DNA of 64,000 nucleotides, from NCBI GenBank assembly GCA_029882915.1, contig JAOUJZ010000001.1, positions 118,035 through 182,034 of the forward strand. Reading direction: 5' to 3'. The notes under the pieces are model-generated. The model was given only the letters and a program-made list of their open reading frames with translations. It was not told the origin of the DNA and made no database searches. Below are positions 17,993-30,744 of the stretch, in pieces. This DNA is from Gammaproteobacteria bacterium (lineage in GTDB: Bacteria > Pseudomonadota > Gammaproteobacteria > Nitrosococcales > Methylophagaceae). A program made the translations under genes and the position numbers. The first letter of the stretch is position 1; each line of letters begins with the position of its first letter.

Positions 17993-20900
17993 CTATTTTT
18001 TGCCAATGCCAATTGGATTGAGTTGTGCTTCACGTTCCGGTGTTAACGGCCGTTCTAACCAGTCAATATCTTGATCCGCTAGTTTATGTACAACAACGAC
18101 TTCATCACGTTGACTGCCCACCGTGCCGTAGTAGTTAAAGGCATACGACAGCTGGGCATAGCCGCCAATCATATTGGTTGGCTTCATGGCAATACGTGTT
18201 ACCGAATTAAGGATACCGCCACGTTTACCTGTTGAAGGCGAACCCGGCACATTCACATTTTTCTCCTGAGCGTGATACATCATGGCCATACCATTAGGGA
18301 TCCGTTGTGAAATAACGGCACGTGTAATCGTTGCACCATTCGCGTTAATGATCTCGATCCAGTCGTTATCAACTAGCCCTATTTGTTTGGCATCTTGTTC
18401 TGATATCCAGGTATAAGGACCACCACGGAATAACTGCAACATACGCAAGTTATCTTGATACGTTGAATGGATACCCCATTTTGAATGCGGTGTAATCCAG
18501 CTCAAAGTCAGATGTGGTTTTTTACGTACATTATCAGGCAGTTTTTCATGCGCCTTCATATCAATCGGTGGGCGATAAGTACAGTTACCCTCACCAAAGT
18601 CCAGCATCCATTCATGATCTTGATAGAAGTGCGCTCTACCTGTTAGCGTTCTGAATGGAATATGTTCATGTACATTGGTGTAACCCGCTGTGTATGACAC
18701 ATGTTCTGATTCAATTCCTGACCAGGTTGGTGCAGTAATGATCTTACGCGGTTGAGCCTGAATATCACGGAAGGTGATCTTCTCTTCCTGCCTCCCAGCA
18801 TAAAGATGATGATGATCAATACCTGTTTTTTTCGATAATGCTGACCATGATTTATGGGCCACTTCACCATTGGTTTCTGGTGCCATCCGCATTACAGAGT
18901 CACAGACATAAATATCCTCCTCTAACGAAGGCATTCCGTACGATACCCCTGGAACTTTAACTGTATAGTTAAGTTTCTTCAGCTCTTCGTACTCTTGCTC
19001 TGTGTTCCAGTCAACACCCTTAATATTATTACCAATTGTGGTCATCAACGGACCTAAAGCAATGTATTTGTTATAAATACTTCCATAGTCACGTTCAATA
19101 ACTTTAATAATAGGCATGGTTTTACCTGGGACAGGCTCACATTCACCTCGTTTCCAATCTTTGACTTCACCAAAAGGTTGAGCCAATTCAGCTGGTGAGT
19201 CATGTTGCATAGGCAATGCCACCACATCCTTTCTAACACCAAGATGTTGACCGCCTAGTTCACTGAACTTTTTAGCAATAGATTGGAAAATCTGCCAATC
19301 TGATTTAGATTCCCAACCTGGTGAGACTGCTTCAGAGAGTGGGTGAATAAATGGATGCATATCCGTAGTATTCAGGTCATTTTTCTCATACCAGGTTGCT
19401 GTTGGTAACACGATATCTGAATAAGCACCTGTAGAATTTAGACGGAAGTTGATATCAACCATTAAGTCTAATTTTGCGATAGGGGCTTCTTCATGCCATT
19501 TCACTTCCTTACAACGATTACCATCACCACCTTCCTGCATTACACCATTTTGTGCTCCAAGCAGGTGTTTAAGGAAGTATTCATGGCCTTTTGCTGAGGT
19601 ACCAATCAGGTTAGCTCGCCATACAAACAGGTTACGAGGCCAGTTTTCAGGTGCATCAGGATCAGCAAATGCCACATCCAACTCACCCTCTTTCAGCTGT
19701 TTGGCCACATATGCGCCCATACCAGCTTCATCGGTGACACCCGCTTGTTCAGCCTCTTTAGCTAAAGTAATTGGGTTTTTGTTCCAGTGTGGTGAAGATG
19801 GCAACCAGCCTAGTCGAGTTGCAACTACATTGTAATCTGCAATGCTATAGCCTTTATATTTTGCTTTAGCTGCAGGTGACTGCAAGTCATCCGGATTAAT
19901 GGTGTCATAACGCCATTGATCGGTATGGAAATACCAGAATGATGTTGAATTTTGATGGCGTGGAGGACGTTGCCAGTCAAGTGCAAAGGCAATTGGTGCC
20001 CAACCCGCTTGTGGTCGTAATTTTTCCTGACCTACATAGTGTGCCCAACCACCACCAGATTGACCAACGCAACCACACATATGAAGTAGATTCATAATTG
20101 AACGGTAACTCAAATCATTGTGATACCAGTGGTTAATTGCAGCCCCCATAATAACCATGGATTTACCCGTGGTTTTAGCGGCATTATCAGCAAATTCACG
20201 GCCTGTACGTTCAATATCAGCAGCTTTCACACCAGTGACTTTTTCAGCCCAGGCTGGTGTGTAAGCTACATCTGCATCAGCATAAGATTTAGCGACATTT
20301 TCACCACCCAAGCCGCGATCCAGACTGTAATTAGCCAATTGTAAATCAAATACACTGGTAACAAAAACGTCTTCACCATTAGCTAACGTTAGCTTTCTAG
20401 TAGGGACGTTTCTCCATAACAAGCCCGGCTCATCAGGTGTGAAATGTGGAAATCCAACAGAGACCACTTCATCATGATTATCAATACATGAAAGTTCTTC
20501 AATAATGTCATTATCCGATGCTTTTGGTAATAAATTCCATTTACCTTCTTCACCCCAACGGAAACCAATTGAGCCATTTGGTGCAACAAATGTTTTGCTG
20601 TTTTCATCGTAAACAATTGTTTTCCATTCGGGATTGTTATCTTCACCAAGATTATTATCAAAATCTGACGCCCTGAGACAACGATCAGAGACATAGCCAC
20701 CGCCATGCTTACGCAATATAACCTGCATTGGCAAATCGGTATTTTGACGTGCATACGCCGTAAAGTAGGGTTCTTGTTTATCGATGTGAAACTCTTTCAG
20801 TGCCACATGGCCCATTGCCATGAAGGCAGCAGAGTCAGTGCCCTGTTTTACCGGCATCCATAGATCAGCAAATTTCACATACTCAGCGTAATCGGGGGCC

Positions 20901-21742
20901 ATTGACACAATCTTGGCACCTTTATAACGAACCTCTGTAGCAAAATGTGCATCAGGAGTTCGTGTCATCGGTAGATTTGCACCTGTGATCACTATATAAG
21001 TAGAGTTATACCAGTCTGCTGCTTCAGGTACGTCTGTCTGTTCGCCCCATGTTTGTGGGCTTGCAGCAGGTAAATCACAATACCAGTCATAAAAAGAGCC
21101 GCAGGCACCACCGATGAGAGAGAGGTATCGAGAGCCTGCAGCGTAAGAAATCATTGACATAGCTGGAATTGGTGAGAAGCCGTAAATACGATCCGGACCC
21201 CATTTATCAATAGTATAAATATTGGCGGCGGCTGTAATCTCAGTCACCTCTTCCCATGTCGCCCGAACAAAACCACCTAAACCACGGACCGAAGTGTATT
21301 TTTTACGCTTGTTTTCATCTGCTTGAATCGCAGCCCATGCTTCTACTGGGTCTTTACCTGAACGACGTTCAGCACGATACAACTCAAGTAATCGACCACG
21401 AATAAGTGGATATTTAATACGGTGAGGACTGTATAAGTACCATGAAAAACTCGCACCACGCTGACAACCTCGCGGCTCGTGATTAGGCATATCTTCGCGA
21501 GTACGTGGATAATCTGTTTGCTGCATTTCAAATGACACTAGGCCATTTTTAACAAATATTTTCCAGGAACAACCACCGGTACAATTTACCCCATGGGTAG
21601 AACGCACCACCTTGTCATGACGCCAGCGATTACGATATCCATCTTCCCATTGACGATCTTCGTTGGTCACGATGCCATGTTCATCCGAAAAGGTTTCTTT
21701 AACCTTATCGAAGAAATTTAATCTATCCAGAAAGTGACTCAT
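17993..21742 (-). CDS. narG: Respiratory nitrate reductase alpha subunit (molybdoenzyme)
   Basis: 1249 aa; 'VRSTHGVNCTGGCSWKIFVKNGLV', 'GACGSFYDWYCDLPAASPQTWGEQTDVPE'. Confidence 0.99.
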   Translation of the reverse strand: MSHFLDRLNFFDKVKETFSDEHGIVTNEDRQWEDGYRNRWRHDKVVRSTHGVNCTGGCSWKIFVKNGLVSFEMQQTDYPRTREDMPNHEPRGCQRGASFSWYLYSPHRIKYPLIRGRLLELYRAERRSGKDPVEAWAAIQADENKRKKYTSVRGLGGFVRATWEEVTEITAAANIYTIDKWGPDRIYGFSPIPAMSMISYAAGSRYLSLIGGACGSFYDWYCDLPAASPQTWGEQTDVPEAADWYNSTYIVITGANLPMTRTPDAHFATEVRYKGAKIVSMAPDYAEYVKFADLWMPVKQGTDSAAFMAMGHVALKEFHIDKQEPYFTAYARQNTDLPMQVILRKHGGGYVSDRCLRASDFDNNLGEDNNPEWKTIVYDENSKTFVAPNGSIGFRWGEEGKWNLLPKASDNDIIEELSCIDNHDEVVSVGFPHFTPDEPGLLWRNVPTRKLTLANGEDVFVTSVFDLQLANYSLDRGLGGENVAKSYADADVAYTPAWAEKVTGVKAADIERTGREFADNAAKTTGKSMVIMGAAINHWYHNDLSYRSIMNLLHMCGCVGQSGGGWAHYVGQEKLRPQAGWAPIAFALDWQRPPRHQNSTSFWYFHTDQWRYDTINPDDLQSPAAKAKYKGYSIADYNVVATRLGWLPSSPHWNKNPITLAKEAEQAGVTDEAGMGAYVAKQLKEGELDVAFADPDAPENWPRNLFVWRANLIGTSAKGHEYFLKHLLGAQNGVMQEGGDGNRCKEVKWHEEAPIAKLDLMVDINFRLNSTGAYSDIVLPTATWYEKNDLNTTDMHPFIHPLSEAVSPGWESKSDWQIFQSIAKKFSELGGQHLGVRKDVVALPMQHDSPAELAQPFGEVKDWKRGECEPVPGKTMPIIKVIERDYGSIYNKYIALGPLMTTIGNNIKGVDWNTEQEYEELKKLNYTVKVPGVSYGMPSLEEDIYVCDSVMRMAPETNGEVAHKSWSALSKKTGIDHHHLYAGRQEEKITFRDIQAQPRKIITAPTWSGIESEHVSYTAGYTNVHEHIPFRTLTGRAHFYQDHEWMLDFGEGNCTYRPPIDMKAHEKLPDNVRKKPHLTLSWITPHSKWGIHSTYQDNLRMLQLFRGGPYTWISEQDAKQIGLVDNDWIEIINANGATITRAVISQRIPNGMAMMYHAQEKNVNVPGSPSTGKRGGILNSVTRIAMKPTNMIGGYAQLSYAFNYYGTVGSQRDEVVVVHKLADQDIDWLERPLTPEREAQLNPIGIGKK

Positions 21743-21766
21743 AGTATTCTCTCCGTTATTACTTCT

Positions 21767-21788
21767 GCTTGATATATGTGTGTCAAGC
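21767..21788. repeat. Inverted repeat in the narG leader
   Basis: GCTTGA-N10-TCAAGC, 25 bp upstream of the narG ATG. Confidence 0.4.
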
Positions 21789-21807
21789 GATAAATATGTA
21801 GAACATA

Positions 21808-21828
21808 GTGGTCAGACTCACTGACCAC
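21808..21828 (-). terminator. Hairpin between narK-type gene and narG; attenuator or weak terminator
   Basis: GTGGTCAG-actca-CTGACCAC 8-bp stem, 16 nt past the transporter stop codon. Confidence 0.45.
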
Positions 21829-21844
21829 CTTCTTCTAATGGATT

Positions 21845-23464
21845 TTATGGATTGTGGAACTCTGCATCTTTACGCAAGTAGAACCACCAGTTAATAACCA
21901 TGCAAACGGCATAGAAAATGGCAAATCCATAAAGCGCATTTTCTGGTGTTGTTGCTTTAATTTGTTCTCCAAAGACTTTTGGAATAATGAATGCACCATA
22001 GGCAGCCACAGCAGAAGTCCAACCTAGTACTGGGCCCGCTTGCTCTTTATTGAACACTTGAGAGATAGTACGGAAAGTGGATCCATTACCTAACCCTGTA
22101 GCCGCAAAAAGAATCACAAACAAGACCAAGAAAGGCATAAAGTACTGCTCAGGTGTTGCTGATGCATAAGCTTGCTTCATAAAATATGCTACGCCCAATG
22201 CAGAAGCCACCATAATCGCTGAGATAATTTGTGTTACTTTCGCTCCACCCATTTTATCCGCAATCATACCGCCCACTGGACGAATCAATGCCCCTACAAA
22301 AGCGCCCATCCAAGCATACCTTAAAGCTGACGGACCATTTGGATTGGTCACATCATGTGTCATGACACCGTCAACTAATAAATGTTGATATCCAAATACA
22401 ACTTTAATGGCTAACGCTAATGTTGCCGCATAACCAATAAATGAACCGAATGTCATTACATAAATAATAGTCATGGCCCATGTGTGTTTATTGTCAAAAA
22501 TCTTGTATTGACGATTCAGCCCTTCTTTGTAGTCGCTGCCCAAAGGTAAAAGTTTTAATAGCAATACTGTCAAAACAATCACTATTGGCAGTGCTATCCA
22601 TTTACTCAACATCATTCCAGAACCATGTGCTACCTCTGGCAACATTAACCACAAACCAAATGCAGCGGTTGCAAGACCTAAAATCAACATCACAATGATC
22701 TTAATGAAGGCGCTCACGGTAGAGCCGATATTAGGTGACACAAATTCTTCTGTAATGTTATTCATCCCCATCCAGGTTGCAATTGAAAGTGGGATTAAGA
22801 TGATTAACCAGATATAACCTGCATTTTGAATATAGGTATCAGTACCTGCAGGAATTTTGCCGATGAGCGTACCTGAAGAAATCAGTAATTCCATTGGTTC
22901 ACCTGTAAATCCAACAGCCATGGTCATTGCCAATGGAATCAGGATTTGCATGGTAGTCACACCAAAGTTACCTAAACCCGCGTTCATTCCTAATGAATAC
23001 CCCTGTATCTTCTTAGGATAGAAGAAAGAAATATTTGACATTGAAGAGGCAAAGTTACCACCACCAATACCAGACAGTAAGGCTAAAATCTGGAAATGCC
23101 AAAATGGAGTGTCTGGGCTAGATAAAGCTATACCAACCCCTAACGCTGGCAAAATTAACAGTGATGTGGTTAAGAAAATAGTATTTCTACCCCCTGCTAA
23201 ACGAATGAAGAAGGTAGAAGGGATCCTTAATGTTGCACCAGACAAACCTGCAATTGCCGCTAGGGTGAACAACTGTGATTTTTCAAAACCACCATAACCA
23301 AGATTGAGCATTTGGACAGTGATGATGCCCCACATTAACCACACTGCAAAACCACTCAACAAGCTTGGAATTGATATCCAAAGATTCCTGCTCGCTATTT
23401 TTTTCCCTGTGGATTCCCAGAACTGCTCGTCCTCGACATCCCATTTTTGTAGATCTTTAGCCAT
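21845..23464 (-). CDS. narK: Nitrate/nitrite MFS transporter, NarK family (E. coli NarK-like, 539 aa)
   Basis: 12 TM, 'GIGGGNFASSMSNISFFYPKKIQGYSLGMNAGLGNFGV', 'GLGNGSTFRTISQVF' nitrate signature motifs. Confidence 0.94.
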   Translation of the reverse strand: MAKDLQKWDVEDEQFWESTGKKIASRNLWISIPSLLSGFAVWLMWGIITVQMLNLGYGGFEKSQLFTLAAIAGLSGATLRIPSTFFIRLAGGRNTIFLTTSLLILPALGVGIALSSPDTPFWHFQILALLSGIGGGNFASSMSNISFFYPKKIQGYSLGMNAGLGNFGVTTMQILIPLAMTMAVGFTGEPMELLISSGTLIGKIPAGTDTYIQNAGYIWLIILIPLSIATWMGMNNITEEFVSPNIGSTVSAFIKIIVMLILGLATAAFGLWLMLPEVAHGSGMMLSKWIALPIVIVLTVLLLKLLPLGSDYKEGLNRQYKIFDNKHTWAMTIIYVMTFGSFIGYAATLALAIKVVFGYQHLLVDGVMTHDVTNPNGPSALRYAWMGAFVGALIRPVGGMIADKMGGAKVTQIISAIMVASALGVAYFMKQAYASATPEQYFMPFLVLFVILFAATGLGNGSTFRTISQVFNKEQAGPVLGWTSAVAAYGAFIIPKVFGEQIKATTPENALYGFAIFYAVCMVINWWFYLRKDAEFHNP

Positions 23465-23520
23465 GGCTAATATCCTCTAGTTAATTATTCCAAATATATC
23501 CACTATTACCCGCATAGGAA

Positions 23521-24813
23521 TTACTCTATTAATTCTGCATCTCTTTCTGCCCTACGAACTAAATATGCTTCATGCCGTTCCTGTTTCATTGGGCGCACTT
23601 CTGTCCAATACATCCATAGTAGAGATACCCAGATAACGCCAAACATCAACATAAAGGCTGACGAACGAACACCAGTCAAATCAACCAATGCACCGAACAT
23701 AATAGGAAGTAAAAATCCCCCCATGCCACCAGCAAGACCAACGATGCCGGAAATGACACCGATGTTGTGTGAATAGTCATCTGAAATGTATTTGAAGACT
23801 GATGCTTTACCGATAGCAAAAGCCACCCCAATGGTAAACATCAATACTGTAAATACAGTAGCATTTAAGCCTATATCAAAGCCCAAAGGACCATCTACAG
23901 TCATAATACTTAGATGAGTTTGTGGGTAAGAAAGGAAGAATAGACAAACCAATGACACCCATAACACCCACCATGTAACTGTATGAGCACCATATTTATC
24001 GGAATAGAACCCACCTATGGCTCGAAGAATACCGCCCGGCAATGAGAAGCATGCAGCCAGCAAGGCAGCCGTTTTAATATCGAAGCCATATTCACCAATA
24101 TAGTATTTGGTCATCCATAATGACAAAGCTACGTAGCCACCAAACACAATTGAATAATACTGACAAAGCTTCCAGACCTTAGGATCATTTAACGCCTTCA
24201 ACTGATCAGCTATGGTGATGCTTTTACTATTATTAGTGGCGCTACTGTGAGCGGGGTCAGTAAAAGTAAACATCCAGAAAGCTATTGCAGTTACTGTCAT
24301 CAACACTGCATACACTTTTGGCACCATAGTCCAGCCGTATGCAACCACAATACTGGGAGCAATCAATTTGGTGAGTGCAGCACCAACATTACCGGCTCCA
24401 AAGATTCCCATAGCTGTACCTTGCTGGTTTCTTGGGAACCAACGAGCACAATAAGCAATACCCACTGTAAAAGAGGCGCCGGCAAGCCCCACAAACAAAC
24501 CTGTTACCAAGTAATGCCAATAAGCCGTGCCGTAAGAAATAAGCCAAATAGGAACGATGGTAGACACCATCAACCAAAAAAATACCACGCGACCACCGAA
24601 CTTGTCGGTCAACATACCAATTGGTAGTCGGAATAGAGAACCGGTCAATACGGGCATCGCTACCAAAACACCGAACTGTGTTTCATTTAACCCCAGCGTT
24701 TCCTTAATAGGAATACCGATTACTGCAAACATCATCCACACCATAAAACATACGGTGAAAGACAAAGTACTCATTCCTACTACGGACCATGCCTTGGTTT
24801 TTTCTGTTGTCAT
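23521..24813 (-). CDS. narK: Nitrate MFS transporter, NNP family (NarK1-like, 430 aa)
   Basis: 'GLAGASFTVGIAYCARWFPRNQQGTAMGIFGAGNVGAALTK', 'GGILRAIGGFYSDKYGA'. Confidence 0.94.
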   Translation of the reverse strand: MTTEKTKAWSVVGMSTLSFTVCFMVWMMFAVIGIPIKETLGLNETQFGVLVAMPVLTGSLFRLPIGMLTDKFGGRVVFFWLMVSTIVPIWLISYGTAYWHYLVTGLFVGLAGASFTVGIAYCARWFPRNQQGTAMGIFGAGNVGAALTKLIAPSIVVAYGWTMVPKVYAVLMTVTAIAFWMFTFTDPAHSSATNNSKSITIADQLKALNDPKVWKLCQYYSIVFGGYVALSLWMTKYYIGEYGFDIKTAALLAACFSLPGGILRAIGGFYSDKYGAHTVTWWVLWVSLVCLFFLSYPQTHLSIMTVDGPLGFDIGLNATVFTVLMFTIGVAFAIGKASVFKYISDDYSHNIGVISGIVGLAGGMGGFLLPIMFGALVDLTGVRSSAFMLMFGVIWVSLLWMYWTEVRPMKQERHEAYLVRRAERDAELIE

Positions 24814-24905
24814 AACGTCCTCCAGTCACAGTGATTTATTCACAGTTAAAGGATAGGCGCATTAACAACGGTGTGATATTAGCCAGAAGTACAATTTGGG
24901 AACTA

Positions 24906-24923
24906 AAAAGAACTAGTTCTTTT
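24906..24923. promoter_or_regulatory. Perfect 18-bp palindrome in the narL-narK intergenic region
   Basis: AAAAGAACTAGTTCTTTT. Confidence 0.4.
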
Positions 24924-24978
24924 GGGTAGGGTACGGAGTGATTAGATAGTAGATGAAGATTTTCATCACTGAACAGAG

Positions 24979-25641
24979 TTAATGCTCAGTGCTGGGAACA
25001 AGTCCATGTTCAACAGCATACACTGCCGCCTGAACACGACTCGATAGGTTGAGTTTACGTAAAATACCCTGCACATGAATTTTAACTGTCGACTCCGCCA
25101 AATCAAGTGTTCTGGCAATGCCTTTATTACTCTCACCACGAGCTAGCAGGACGATGATTTCACTCTCTCGTGGCGTCAAGTGAATAGTCTGTTGCTGTAT
25201 CGACTGCAATGGGTCTGGTTCGCGGATTACATCAGCCAACTTCGCAGCCATTTGTGGGGATATGACTGATTCGCCTTTAATAGCTTGATGTATAGAATCT
25301 ACCAAAAAGTCTATTTCTATATTTTTCAGTAAATATCCTCGAGCACCAGCACGTAATGCCTGTAATAAATCCTGTGCATCTTCTGAAACAGTCAACATCA
25401 ATACCTGAGACTCTGGTACATCTTGTTGTAACACCTGCAAAGTCTGTAAGCCATTCGTTCCAGGCATATGTAGATCGAGAAGAATGACATCAGGCTTCAA
25501 CGTCTTGGCAAGCTTAATTCCATCAAGACCATTACTAGCCTCGGCTACCACCTCGAACTCATCCTGACTTTCAAGCAACGATTTGATGCCACTACGAAAT
25601 AAACTATGATCATCAATCAATAAAATACGTATTACCGTCAC
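24979..25641 (-). CDS. narL: Nitrate/nitrite response regulator
   Basis: 'ILLIDDHSLFRSGIKSLLE', 'LDLHMPGTNGL', LuxR HTH 'LTPRESEIIVLLARGESNKGIARTLDLAESTVKIHVQGILRKLNL'; 4-nt overlap with narX. Confidence 0.95.
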   Translation of the reverse strand: MTVIRILLIDDHSLFRSGIKSLLESQDEFEVVAEASNGLDGIKLAKTLKPDVILLDLHMPGTNGLQTLQVLQQDVPESQVLMLTVSEDAQDLLQALRAGARGYLLKNIEIDFLVDSIHQAIKGESVISPQMAAKLADVIREPDPLQSIQQQTIHLTPRESEIIVLLARGESNKGIARTLDLAESTVKIHVQGILRKLNLSSRVQAAVYAVEHGLVPSTEH

Positions 25642-27587
25642 GCTTCTATAGCCTCAGCTACTAAAAAGGAATTACTGGCTAAAGGAAGGTTTAAACATAC
25701 CGTAGTTCCAGATCCAACGACAGAATTAATAGTCAGATTGGCATGGATACGATGAGTCCGCTCCTTCATAATACGAAGTCCAACATGAGTATCAGATATT
25801 TCCTTGGCATCATCGAAACCGATACCATTATCCTTAATAATCATCTGGCAGCCCGCTTCGTGTCTAAAAGTCACCTCGACTAATGTTGCTTGTGAATGCT
25901 TACGGATATTAGAAAGGCTCTCGTGTAAAATATGCATCAATTGCAATATGGTTTCAGGTTGAAGCGGCACAGCATTACCTTCATATTTATACCTTGTTTT
26001 AATTCCGGTTTGCCCTTCAAATTTTTCCAACGCACTACGGATCGCAACATCAATATCATCATGCTCAGTACGCGTACGGAAATGGACCAACAATTCCCTG
26101 ACATCATCATAACTTTCTTGTATTCCTTCCTTGATTTTGACTAAGGTGCCATCGACACTCTCATAATGTCCTTTTCGCAGACTATCTTGTAATAGTTGAG
26201 CCTGAATGTTCAAAAAAGCCAGTGATTGTGCGATGCTATCGTGAAGTTCCTGTGCCAATAAATTACGTTCTTCAGAGATAGCTAATTCTTTTTCACGCTC
26301 CACAAATCGTTGATTTTCAATAGCAGCTCCCAAGTGCTGGCTCACCGTTTCCAGCAATTTCACCTCTGAAGGCGGCAATACCCTCGGTTCTTTAAAAAAT
26401 AGATTAAATACACCTATTATATTCTGCCTCGTTTTGATCGGTGCAGCTATAATCCCTTCAAAACCTTCATTTTGGCATGTATGCCTAGATAACTCTGTTT
26501 GATCAATATCTGCAACCTTACAACTGACAGCACTGGCACCTATTGCAGATTCACCACATAAGCAATCACCACAGGATAAAGTTGATTCCTTGGTAAGAAA
26601 ATCTTCTGAAACACCATACCATGCAACAATAGGAGCTTTTTCATGCTTTGGATCAATTAATCGTATAACACCTGCACTGGCACCAAACAACATTACCATC
26701 TTTCCAAGAACGCCATCGCATAATATTTCTGTAGCTGATGCCGTATTTAAAAATGATGTTGTATCGTACAATGCTGCCAGTTCACGACTTTTAAACTCTA
26801 TGCTTTGTGTTTTACTTTTGACCCGCTGTTCGAGGGTGGCGTAGATTTCCTGTAAATGTTCTGCCATTCGGTTAAATCCAACCGCCAACTCTTCCAGTTC
26901 ATCCTGTCCATTCACGGGTAGGCGAACACTAAAATCACCTTTACCCATTTTATCCAGACCATCTTTAATTCGATGAACAGGAATTATCACCATTCTCATA
27001 AACAAATAGATCAACAATAGTGTCCCTATTAAAGCCAGGATAACCAGACCTAACTGAAAACTACGTAATAATTTTGTTGCCCGAGCCTGACTCTGCTCCA
27101 CCATCACAACCAAGGCATCTATATCTGCAACAAAAGCTTTTAACTCACTCCTGTAATTTTCCAGAAGTCGACTCGCTTTTTTCGTGTTCGTTTCTTTGAG
27201 AATGTCAAGAACATGTGGCTTGTTTCGCTCAAACCACGCTTTCTGAATCTGCTTTAATGACGAGCGAAGCTCAGGATCATTAGGCAATAACAACGGTCGG
27301 ACAGGATCCCCCTTTTCTAGCACTAATAGCGTTTTTTCAAACAAATTAATTTCGTTGTTAGTTTCGATTGTTAATGCTGAAGAGGGATCTTCAACATGTT
27401 GAGCTAACAAAAACGCAATACTATATGAACGCATGCGCTGACTACCTGCGTCGTTAATTGCGGCTGCTCCGCCTTCCAGACGCCAGGAAACCATTAAAGT
27501 AGACGCAATTGCCACAAATGCAATCACAAAATAGATAATTAATAAGCCGGTAATCTTTTGGTGAATAGACAGGGTAGAAAAATTCAA
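25638..27587 (-). CDS. narX: Nitrate/nitrite sensor histidine kinase
   Basis: N-terminal NIT-like 'GGAAAINDAGSQRMRSYSIAF' P-box, HAMP, cysteine-rich linker 'LSCGDCLCGESAIGA', HisKA_3 'LAQELHDSIAQSLAFLNIQ'. Confidence 0.94.
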   Translation of the reverse strand: MNFSTLSIHQKITGLLIIYFVIAFVAIASTLMVSWRLEGGAAAINDAGSQRMRSYSIAFLLAQHVEDPSSALTIETNNEINLFEKTLLVLEKGDPVRPLLLPNDPELRSSLKQIQKAWFERNKPHVLDILKETNTKKASRLLENYRSELKAFVADIDALVVMVEQSQARATKLLRSFQLGLVILALIGTLLLIYLFMRMVIIPVHRIKDGLDKMGKGDFSVRLPVNGQDELEELAVGFNRMAEHLQEIYATLEQRVKSKTQSIEFKSRELAALYDTTSFLNTASATEILCDGVLGKMVMLFGASAGVIRLIDPKHEKAPIVAWYGVSEDFLTKESTLSCGDCLCGESAIGASAVSCKVADIDQTELSRHTCQNEGFEGIIAAPIKTRQNIIGVFNLFFKEPRVLPPSEVKLLETVSQHLGAAIENQRFVEREKELAISEERNLLAQELHDSIAQSLAFLNIQAQLLQDSLRKGHYESVDGTLVKIKEGIQESYDDVRELLVHFRTRTEHDDIDVAIRSALEKFEGQTGIKTRYKYEGNAVPLQPETILQLMHILHESLSNIRKHSQATLVEVTFRHEAGCQMIIKDNGIGFDDAKEISDTHVGLRIMKERTHRIHANLTINSVVGSGTTVCLNLPLASNSFLVAEAIEA

Positions 27588-27633
27588 AACCAGGCAACCA
27601 CATTCAAATCAAAAAAATTAGTGTAAGGCGGTA

Positions 27634-27647
27634 TGAAATTAATTTCA
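27634..27647. promoter_or_regulatory. 14-bp AT-rich palindrome upstream of narX
   Basis: TGAAATTAATTTCA. Confidence 0.25.
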
Positions 27648-27819
27648 CCTACTTTTTTCAATCATGTCTTTAAATAAGACACTAATTACACATAATTATG
27701 GCGATCATTAATGCCGTTTTCATACTGTACGGGTAATTGCCAGCATCTAGCTTAATTTTGTCGTAACTGGTATCTTTACAGGCTGTTTTTAATCACCATA
27801 TTTATTAGAGAGAGAAATA

Positions 27820-27924
27820 ATGGAAAAGCTAGAGAATTTCATGATTGAAAAGTTTTCAGGGTTCATTTTTGCATTCGCGATTTTTTGGTTATCGCTAGTC
27901 GCATATGGCTTATTTAATTCTTAA
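27820..27924 (+). CDS. Predicted 34-aa single-pass membrane microprotein (paralog 1)
   Basis: ATG..TAA translates MEKLENFMIEKFSGFIFAFAIFWLSLVAYGLFNS; upstream GAGAGAGA RBS; terminator 28 nt downstream; paralog at 28101. Confidence 0.75.
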   Translation: MEKLENFMIEKFSGFIFAFAIFWLSLVAYGLFNS

Positions 27925-27951
27925 ATAAAACATCTTGATTCATTATCTAAT

Positions 27952-27979
27952 AAAGCCAGTTATCCCGACTGGCTTTTTT
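27952..27979 (+). terminator. Rho-independent terminator after microprotein 1
   Basis: AAAGCCAGT-tatcccg-ACTGGCTTTTTT. Confidence 0.9.
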
Positions 27980-28013
27980 ATAGCTAACGCCCTTACAATA
28001 AAAAGCTGGTTCT

Positions 28014-28027
28014 TTGATCCAGATCAA
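28014..28027 (+). promoter_or_regulatory. Perfect FNR/ANR-type box upstream of microprotein 2
   Basis: TTGAT-CCAG-ATCAA matches TTGATN4ATCAA at all 10 defined positions; followed by a -10-like CATAAT at 28047-28052, consistent with a class II (-41.5) promoter. Confidence 0.8.
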
Positions 28028-28100
28028 TGCCTTTAGATCGTAAATACATAATCATTACGCTAGTTATTTGTCCCAACCAATTTAGTGAGAGGTGGTTATC

Positions 28101-28205
28101 ATGGAAAAACTGGAAACGTGGATTATTGAAAGCTTTACTGGAATTATTTTTGCCTTTGGCTTGTCGTGGATAGCTCTGGTCGTTTATGGCTTAGTAATGT
28201 CTTAA
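28101..28205 (+). CDS. Predicted 34-aa single-pass membrane microprotein (paralog 2)
   Basis: ATG..TAA translates MEKLETWIIESFTGIIFAFGLSWIALVVYGLVMS; 20/34 identical to paralog 1; GAGAGGTGG RBS; own promoter and terminator. Confidence 0.8.
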   Translation: MEKLETWIIESFTGIIFAFGLSWIALVVYGLVMS

Positions 28206-28224
28206 CATCTCATTTTCCCAAGCA

Positions 28225-28269
28225 ACATTAAAAGGCGGATTACATTAAGTAGTCCGCCTTTTTTAATGT
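28225..28269 (+). terminator. Rho-independent terminator after microprotein 2
   Basis: AAAGGCGGA-ttacattaagtag-TCCGCCTTTTTT, with an outer ACATTA/TAATGT extension. Confidence 0.9.
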
Positions 28270-28338
28270 GCATTGTTGCCAGATCATCATCATTGGCTTA
28301 GCATCAAAGTATTCAAACAAAATGCAGGGACTATAGTA

Positions 28339-30744
28339 ATGACATATCAGTATATTCGCCTTTTTTCTGAGATCAACATTGATGATGTCGACAGTGTCGG
28401 AGGAAAAAATGCCTCCTTGGGTGAAATGTATCGTGAACTCGCACCGCGAGGCATTAAAGTTCCTAATGGTTTTGCTACCACCGCTGAAGCCTATCGCTAT
28501 TTTTTACATCATAACAAACTTGAAGCTCCGATTGCCGATGCATTGAATACTCTTGATATCCATGACACACAGGCGCTCGCTAAAACAGGTGCTAAAATCC
28601 GCTCATGGATTAATAATGCTCATCTACCCTCCGATTTCATCACTGAAATAGAGCACGCATACCAACAATTAGAAACAGAGTATGGTGCAGGAGTCGATGT
28701 CGCAGTTCGAAGTTCTGCCACGGCAGAAGACTTACCAGATGCCTCGTTTGCTGGCCAGCAGGAAACACACCTTAATATCAGTGGTACAGGACAACTGCTC
28801 CATAGTTGCCGTCAAATCTTTGCCTCTTTGTTCACTAACCGAGCAATATCCTACCGTAACGACAAACACTTTGATCACATGTCAGTGGCATTATCCATTG
28901 GTATTCAGAAGATGGTGCGTTCAGATAAGGCCTCCTCGGGTGTTATGTTCACCATCGATACTGAAACCGGCTTTCGTGATGTAGTGCTTATCACTGCTGG
29001 CTGGGGTCTGGGTGAGAATATTGTGCAAGGTACTATCAACCCTGATGAATTTTATGTTTTTAAACCAACACTAGCGTCCGGTCACCGTCCCATTCTTAAA
29101 CGCCAATTAGGCAGTAAAAAAGTCAAAATGATCTACGCAGATGGTGATACCCATGCTGGTTCTACCCGCAATGTAAAAGTAAACCCTGACCAACAGCAAC
29201 AGTTCTGCATCAATGATGATGAAGTCATCGCTCTGTCAAAAATGGCTGTCATAATCGAACAACATTACAGTCGCAAAGCTGGCCGTGCTGTGCCCATGGA
29301 TATTGAATGGGCCAAAGATGCTGACAGTGGTGAACTGTTTATTGTGCAAGCACGGCCAGAAACCGTTGAATCAACGAAAGCATTACATGCACTTGAAAAT
29401 CATGTTCTGGGTCAACGTGGAAAAGTATTGGTTGAAGGTAAAAGTATTGGTAGCAAGATTGCCTCGGGAAAAGTTCGCATTATTCTAGAAACTAGCCAAA
29501 TGCATCAATTACAACCCGGGGAAGTTCTGGTGACAGATATTACCGATCCCGACTGGGAACCAGTAATGAAAATAGCCAGTGCAATAGTGACCAATCGGGG
29601 GGGACGAACCTGCCACGCTGCCATTGTCGCTCGTGAACTGGGAATTCCGGCGATTGTAGGTACTAATATCGCTACTCAGATTATGAGTACTAATGATGAG
29701 GTGACTGTCTCCTGCGGTGAAGGTGACACGGGATTTGTCTATCAAGGGATCCTACCCTACCACATCGAAAACATTGATATGACCACCATCTCACGGCCCC
29801 AACATACTGATGTCATGTTGAACCTGGCAAATCCAGAAATTGCATTTGAAACCAGTATGCTACCTAACTCTGGTGTAGGGCTATGCAGAATGGAATTTAT
29901 TATCAATAACAGTATTCGTATTCACCCCAATGCCTTATTAAATTTTGATCAATTACCTCAAGATAAGCAGCAGCAAATCGAATTATTAACCAATGGTTAT
30001 ACCGATCCTAAAACGTTTTATGTCCAACGTCTTGCTGAAGGTGTTGCGACCATTGCTGCAGCTTTTTACCCCAAACCTGTTATTGTTCGATTGAGTGACT
30101 TCAAATCCAATGAGTATGCAGCTCTGATCGGCGGCGACATTTATGAGCCTGTCGAAGAAAATCCAATGATTGGTTTTCGTGGTGCCACCCGCTATCCCAG
30201 TCCTGCTTTTGCTGATGCCTTTGCCCTAGAATGCGCTGCCATTCGTCTGGCGCGTGACACCATGGGGCTAGATAACATTGCAGTGATGATACCGTTTGTA
30301 CGTACCGTTGTTGAAGGTCAGCGTGTTATCGAATTAATGGCTCAACATGGTTTGATTCGTGGGCAATCAAACTTGAAGGTCTATTTGATGTGTGAAATTC
30401 CGGCTAATGTTCTGCTGGCAGACCAATTTCTTGAACTGTGTGACGGCTTTTCAATAGGTTCGAATGATTTAACACAACTGACACTTGGAGTTGACCGTGA
30501 CTCCAGTATTTTAGGCAATTATGATGAACGTGATGAAGCTGTACTTAAATTGATTGAGATGGCGATTGAAGCCTGTAATAAAGCAGGAAAATATGTTGGG
30601 ATCTGTGGTCAAGCAGCATCAGACTTCCCAGAAATAACTCAATTTTTAGTCAAGAAACATATCAACTCAATTTCACTTAACCCTGATAGCGTGGTCGAAA
30701 TGACCAAAGTTATTTATGATATGGAACAATCACTCAATCATTAA
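28339..30744 (+). CDS. ppsA: Phosphoenolpyruvate synthase (ORF open from 28273; likely start 28339)
   Basis: 'DVDSVGGKNASLGEMY', 'VRSSATAEDLPDASFAGQQET', 'TNRGGRTCHAAIVARELGIPAIVGT' swivelling His, C-terminal PEP-binding domain. Confidence 0.97.
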   Translation: MTYQYIRLFSEINIDDVDSVGGKNASLGEMYRELAPRGIKVPNGFATTAEAYRYFLHHNKLEAPIADALNTLDIHDTQALAKTGAKIRSWINNAHLPSDFITEIEHAYQQLETEYGAGVDVAVRSSATAEDLPDASFAGQQETHLNISGTGQLLHSCRQIFASLFTNRAISYRNDKHFDHMSVALSIGIQKMVRSDKASSGVMFTIDTETGFRDVVLITAGWGLGENIVQGTINPDEFYVFKPTLASGHRPILKRQLGSKKVKMIYADGDTHAGSTRNVKVNPDQQQQFCINDDEVIALSKMAVIIEQHYSRKAGRAVPMDIEWAKDADSGELFIVQARPETVESTKALHALENHVLGQRGKVLVEGKSIGSKIASGKVRIILETSQMHQLQPGEVLVTDITDPDWEPVMKIASAIVTNRGGRTCHAAIVARELGIPAIVGTNIATQIMSTNDEVTVSCGEGDTGFVYQGILPYHIENIDMTTISRPQHTDVMLNLANPEIAFETSMLPNSGVGLCRMEFIINNSIRIHPNALLNFDQLPQDKQQQIELLTNGYTDPKTFYVQRLAEGVATIAAAFYPKPVIVRLSDFKSNEYAALIGGDIYEPVEENPMIGFRGATRYPSPAFADAFALECAAIRLARDTMGLDNIAVMIPFVRTVVEGQRVIELMAQHGLIRGQSNLKVYLMCEIPANVLLADQFLELCDGFSIGSNDLTQLTLGVDRDSSILGNYDERDEAVLKLIEMAIEACNKAGKYVGICGQAASDFPEITQFLVKKHINSISLNPDSVVEMTKVIYDMEQSLNH

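Follow-up and report, generated by a model that had tools for sequence, protein, structure and literature searches.

Tiny membrane proteins with a single helix are known to support respiratory complexes, examples being CydX for cytochrome bd and TorE/NapE for TMAO and nitrate respiration (PMC6134056). In Pseudomonas (Stutzerimonas) stutzeri, the cbb3 oxidase possesses such a subunit in CcoM, a single-helix protein of 36 amino acids that constitutes chain N of PDB 5djq (PMC10433244; PMC8267372). Furthermore, CcoN4 of Pseudomonas aeruginosa is an orphan cbb3 subunit that is encoded apart from the main cco operons (PMC5697931).

Here, two membrane microproteins of 34 amino acids each, A and B, encoded in tandem in a stretch of DNA of 64,000 nucleotides (the window), were compared with these systems. 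CcoM appears to be their nearest analogue in size and in the role proposed for them: members of the A/B family have a single transmembrane helix and are mostly 34–37 amino acids long, their partner would likewise be cbb3, and they may contribute to stability or low-oxygen fitness. However, profile comparison of CcoM with the A/B family gave a probability of 0.3% over one aligned column (the CcoM query was confirmed by a near-identical match to PDB 5djq chain N). Moreover, CcoM ends in RDAHKKS, whereas the charge pattern of A and B suggests the opposite orientation, and A and B are two paralogues with different promoters. Due to the missing sequence similarity and the differing charge pattern, we propose that A and B work like CcoM, but we do not call them a CcoM. 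With CcoQ they would share the property of being small membrane subunits of the same enzyme, but they differ from it in sequence and genomic place; these genomes encode a normal CcoQ in their cco operon as well (66 amino acids in the window's own genome), and the assignment of A or B as CcoQ was rejected because the place between ccoO and ccoP is occupied by this separate protein. CcoN4 resembles the situation proposed here as a cbb3 part encoded outside the main cco operons, but it is a large catalytic subunit. CydX and TorE/NapE serve other partner enzymes, and A and B match no family model: searches against Pfam, NCBIfam and, using the family profile, PDB returned no matches. The lack of recognizable similarity to known small subunits noted in the initial annotation is in accordance with these results.

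The gene pair and its conservation

The open reading frames of both microproteins had been called in the initial annotation, which describes them as absent from the ORF track, and their positions and sequences were verified. The locus comprises the following features:

27768..27776, + strand: extended -10-like element TGGTATCTT, putative promoter of A as judged from sequence
27820..27924, + strand: microprotein A, 34 amino acids, MEKLENFMIEKFSGFIFAFAIFWLSLVAYGLFNS, single membrane helix, no upstream FNR box; conserved family, dN/dS 0.14
27948..27980, + strand: intrinsic terminator of A; hairpin of -13.9 kcal/mol, z -4.3, followed by a T run
28014..28027, + strand: perfect FNR/ANR box TTGATCCAGATCAA upstream of B, kept across B loci
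28050..28055, + strand: -10 element of B, AATCAT, with an implied transcription start at about 28062, based on 39 aligned B promoters
28101..28205, + strand: microprotein B, 34 amino acids, MEKLETWIIESFTGIIFAFGLSWIALVVYGLVMS, single membrane helix, FNR/ANR-type promoter; dN/dS 0.10
28230..28265, + strand: intrinsic terminator of B; stretch of -27.1 kcal/mol, z -7.6, followed by a T run

A and B align without gaps and share 20 of 34 residues, seven of which are encoded by different codons, as had been claimed. Purine-rich ribosome sites precede both genes, and each gene is followed by a strong intrinsic hairpin of its own; the two terminators were missed by a simple consensus scan and were found via hairpin energy and z. 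A start of B at GTG 28092 (37 amino acids) was disfavored, as the relatives point to ATG 28101. A third copy of the family was searched for in the same genome and none was found.

A and/or B were detected by a relatives search and a profile search in 46 of the 57 genomes of the same family, a count that excludes two weak matches with E above 0.03. The reading frames thus recur in relatives far beyond chance. The pooled dN/dS of close pairs indicated purifying selection on both proteins, which bears out the selection that had been suspected from codon usage. Hence, A and B are real, selected genes, and genes of this kind with 34 residues are easily overlooked by gene finders. Carriers include the cultured Methylophaga aminisulfidivorans, M. 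thiooxydans and M. sulfidovorans, and a narrow alignment of Methylophaga A proteins used as query matched Methylophaga only, as expected. All six genomes of the sister family were negative in an order-wide search, and no convincing A or B was found outside the family in the 369 sampled genomes of the class, a result from which very diverged 34-residue relatives could escape. Profile matches outside the family were partial or contained stop codons, and the best of them was rejected, as it lies inside a D-Ala-D-Ala carboxypeptidase-like gene region with no separate open reading frame. The A/B family is regarded as conserved across this family of marine methanol-eating bacteria.

The two paralogues can be told apart across genera: A carries F22 and mostly N33, and B mostly S or A at position 22 and M33. 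The fact that these signatures hold across genera suggests that the duplication probably predates the split of those genera. A and B usually form a tandem whose members are no more than a few hundred bases apart, and beside the locus lies a conserved gene block that begins with an RlmD-type RNA methyltransferase gene. In one Methylophaga genome (G039; L108, L065), about 960 kb separate A from B, and the separate B retains a perfect FNR box.

AlphaFold2 predicted a single helix for residues 2–33 of B with a pLDDT of 95.8. Conserved residues (F12, I16, F19, W23, L26 and G30) cluster on one face of this helix (permutation p = 0.0014), as would be expected if it packs against a partner. Positive charges are located near the N-terminus, and K or R occurs in the last 21 residues of only 3 of 72 members, a pattern that suggests a cytoplasmic N-terminus and an outward C-terminus.

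Promoters and proposed oxygen control

The box at 28014–28027, which the initial annotation does not mention, is the sole perfect FNR/ANR box in the window. A box matching at 9 or 10 of its 10 positions was present in 39 of 40 B loci, as compared to 2% in shuffled sequences, and before A in only 3 of 41 loci. When 39 B promoters were aligned on the box, a common -10 element emerged, tgATaAT (consensus gATaAT); the transcription start that this element implies places the center of the box at -41.5. For FNR, -41.5 is the classical activating (class II) position. B is thus preceded by a predicted class II FNR/ANR-type promoter. The arrangement typical of the FNR/ANR regulon, i.e., TTGAT-N4-ATCAA at an activating position, was found in these same 39 B loci, and an fnr-like gene is present in the genome from which the window was taken.

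The same kind of box occurs at a similar place upstream of ccoN in 34 of the 46 genomes examined. The clade made up of G003, G011, G013 and G016 has no box before ccoN; it has also lost B and retains an A-type gene alone. Against a role in cbb3 counts that ccoN of the window's own genome is preceded by no exact box, just by TTGAT and ATCAA spaced by 5 nt, and that no good or exact box was found before ccoN in G002, G007 and G025 in the stretch examined.

Three variations of these promoters were observed. G011 (L151) carries a second, divergent cbb3 operon with a ccoN of 50% identity and a perfect FNR box upstream, and its main cco operon has no FNR box. In the related genomes G017, G023 and G008 (L034, L036, L112), A has an FNR box about 30 bases before its start codon, which could block rather than activate transcription; if so, A would be an oxic-only isoform there. 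In G010, G018 and G022, A is gone and its promoter-like element, TGGTATCTTT or TGATATCTTT, stays upstream of ppsA; in G018 and G022 (L134, L136), it directly precedes the PEP synthase-like gene, and this leftover element may drive ppsA.

Proposed association with the cbb3 oxidase and alternative explanations

The initial annotation had proposed that A and B could be small accessory subunits or regulators of a membrane complex, for instance a respiratory oxidase or a component of nitrate respiration. The oxidase part of this idea gained support from the shared promoter box and from the distribution of ccoN, which was detected in 53 of the 57 genomes of the family, including all 46 with a microprotein. 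No credible microprotein was found in 11 genomes. Six of these (G005, G009, G026, G028, G053, G056) have a contig break at the A/B locus and are uninformative on absence, and the RlmD anchor could not be located in G055. For G009, a genome of 99% completeness, the apparent lack of the genes was accordingly put down to the contig break, and a weak match in this genome (E 0.03) was rejected, as it lies within an unrelated frame of 95 amino acids. In the remaining genomes, G010, G012, G018 and G022, the assembled locus holds neither gene, and precisely these four lack ccoN. The site at which the cco operon is otherwise conserved (rpsA-ihfB-DUF498) is likewise assembled in G010, G012 and G018, with cco missing from it; in G022 this site is out of view because the contig stops within rpsA, and the completeness of G010 is 81%. 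G012 has kept a relic of A at the right place: its start matches, the reading frame is then disrupted around the conserved tryptophan, and what follows can still be recognized in a different frame as far as the expected stop.

A tree that unites the four genomes in one clade was rejected (AU p = 7e-7), and G012 groups with G003 and G013, both of which keep cco and A. As the four empty genomes do not form one clade, at least two independent co-losses have to be assumed, and the presence of A and B tracks the cco operon through both. Some observations count against a connection with cbb3. The loss events are only two, and both fall in one subclade of small genomes, in which other respiratory genes may have been lost too. 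Moreover, A and B are encoded outside the cco operon (ccoNOQP-GHIS), often about 50 kb away, and genomes with one ccoN still carry A plus B.

Among the respiratory genes tested, only cbb3 fits the distribution of A and B. The aa3-like COX1 is kept in G012, G018 and G022 despite the missing microproteins, while in G000 and G029, which possess microproteins, ccoN is the only COX1. The cydA gene was detected in 25 of 57 genomes, and it was not found in the genome of the window. A CydX-type subunit of cytochrome bd was rejected as an identity for A and B, as their distribution does not follow that of cydA and G010 is cydA-positive and microprotein-free. Taken together, the presence of A and B follows neither FNR nor cytochrome bd.

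The fact that B carries the promoter signature of the low-oxygen switch and that both genes are lost with cbb3 suggests that the two proteins probably form small parts of this high-affinity oxidase or assist it, and a physical association with it is proposed from co-occurrence and co-loss. With reasonable though not high confidence, we regard A and B as single-helix proteins that serve cbb3 as accessory subunits or help in its assembly; A would be constitutive and B made at low oxygen, and both would work like CcoM without being related to it in sequence. Following this, we propose that the face formed by F12, I16, F19, W23, L26 and G30 packs against a transmembrane helix of the oxidase, that A would supply the protein when oxygen is plentiful, and that FNR/ANR would induce B, as the isoform for low oxygen, along with the oxidase. 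A bolder version, in which a new family of cbb3 microsubunits provides constitutive and FNR-induced isoforms that are swapped in the same oxidase and tune its stability or oxygen affinity, is put forward only tentatively. If cbb3 is indeed the partner, a CcoM-sized accessory protein of cbb3 with a single helix arose in a second, unrelated lineage, and this lineage runs two paralogues under different oxygen control; it would also suggest that the recruitment of lineage-specific microsubunits by terminal oxidases is common and escapes annotation. In methodological terms, co-loss with a complex, combined with a promoter signature, can point to the likely partner of a protein of 34 residues. The cbb3 proposal is directly testable, as cultured Methylophaga strains carry the A/B pair.

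Among the alternatives, the one that best withstands the data, although we consider it rather unlikely, is that A and B are general low-oxygen membrane microproteins or belong to another complex, do not bind cbb3 and were lost with the whole micro-oxic lifestyle. The FNR/ANR-type promoter of B would agree with this, as would the outcome that no FNR was detected in three of the four cco-less genomes (G012, G018 and G022); a precedent is YohP, a stress-induced small membrane protein with such general effects (PMC12719787). However, G010 retains both FNR and cytochrome bd (cydA), yet lost cco and the microproteins, and G029 keeps ccoN and a B-type microprotein (box with 9 of 10 matches) although its FNR match is decayed. 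Moreover, A is distributed alike, though 38 of 41 A loci lack an FNR box. The FNR match of G029 (G029:C6:289745-290347), the sole match to the FNR model in a genome of 1.1 Mb, contains 11 stop codons and is likely a pseudogene.

That A and B serve a partner of cbb3, such as cytochrome c, the bc1 complex or a haem/copper supply factor, lost or altered in the same genomes, is improbable: co-loss by itself cannot separate cbb3 from genes lost alongside it, but no such gene was identified, and the distributions of aa3-like COX1, bd and Nar do not match. Size, hydrophobicity and tandem intergenic arrangement would also fit toxins of type I toxin-antitoxin systems, an explanation with very little probability left to it given that the genes are passed on vertically at a single syntenic position throughout the family, and given the FNR-type promoter of B, the link of loss to cco and the lack of any plasmid match; Rfam returned only sub-threshold matches for 27500–28400, and thus no antisense RNA antitoxin of a known family.

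The nitrate part of the initial proposal did not survive the family-wide comparison. In the window, genes for narG, two MFS transporters (NarK-like) and narL-like and narX-like proteins (17993–27587) adjoin the microprotein locus on its upstream side, an arrangement seen only in this genome, which would favor an accessory role in nitrate respiration (Nar) or in NarX signaling, but with narG in 9 of 57 genomes as opposed to microproteins in 46, and narX next to A/B in this window alone, such a general role is refuted by distribution and scarcely any probability can be granted to it. In relatives, the upstream neighbors vary by genome (SulP transporter, lexA/umuC, bioA, tyrS, phosphatase or sugar genes), which together with the rarity of narG argues that the nitrate link is accidental; in this genome, the nar cluster looks as if it had been inserted at the microprotein locus.
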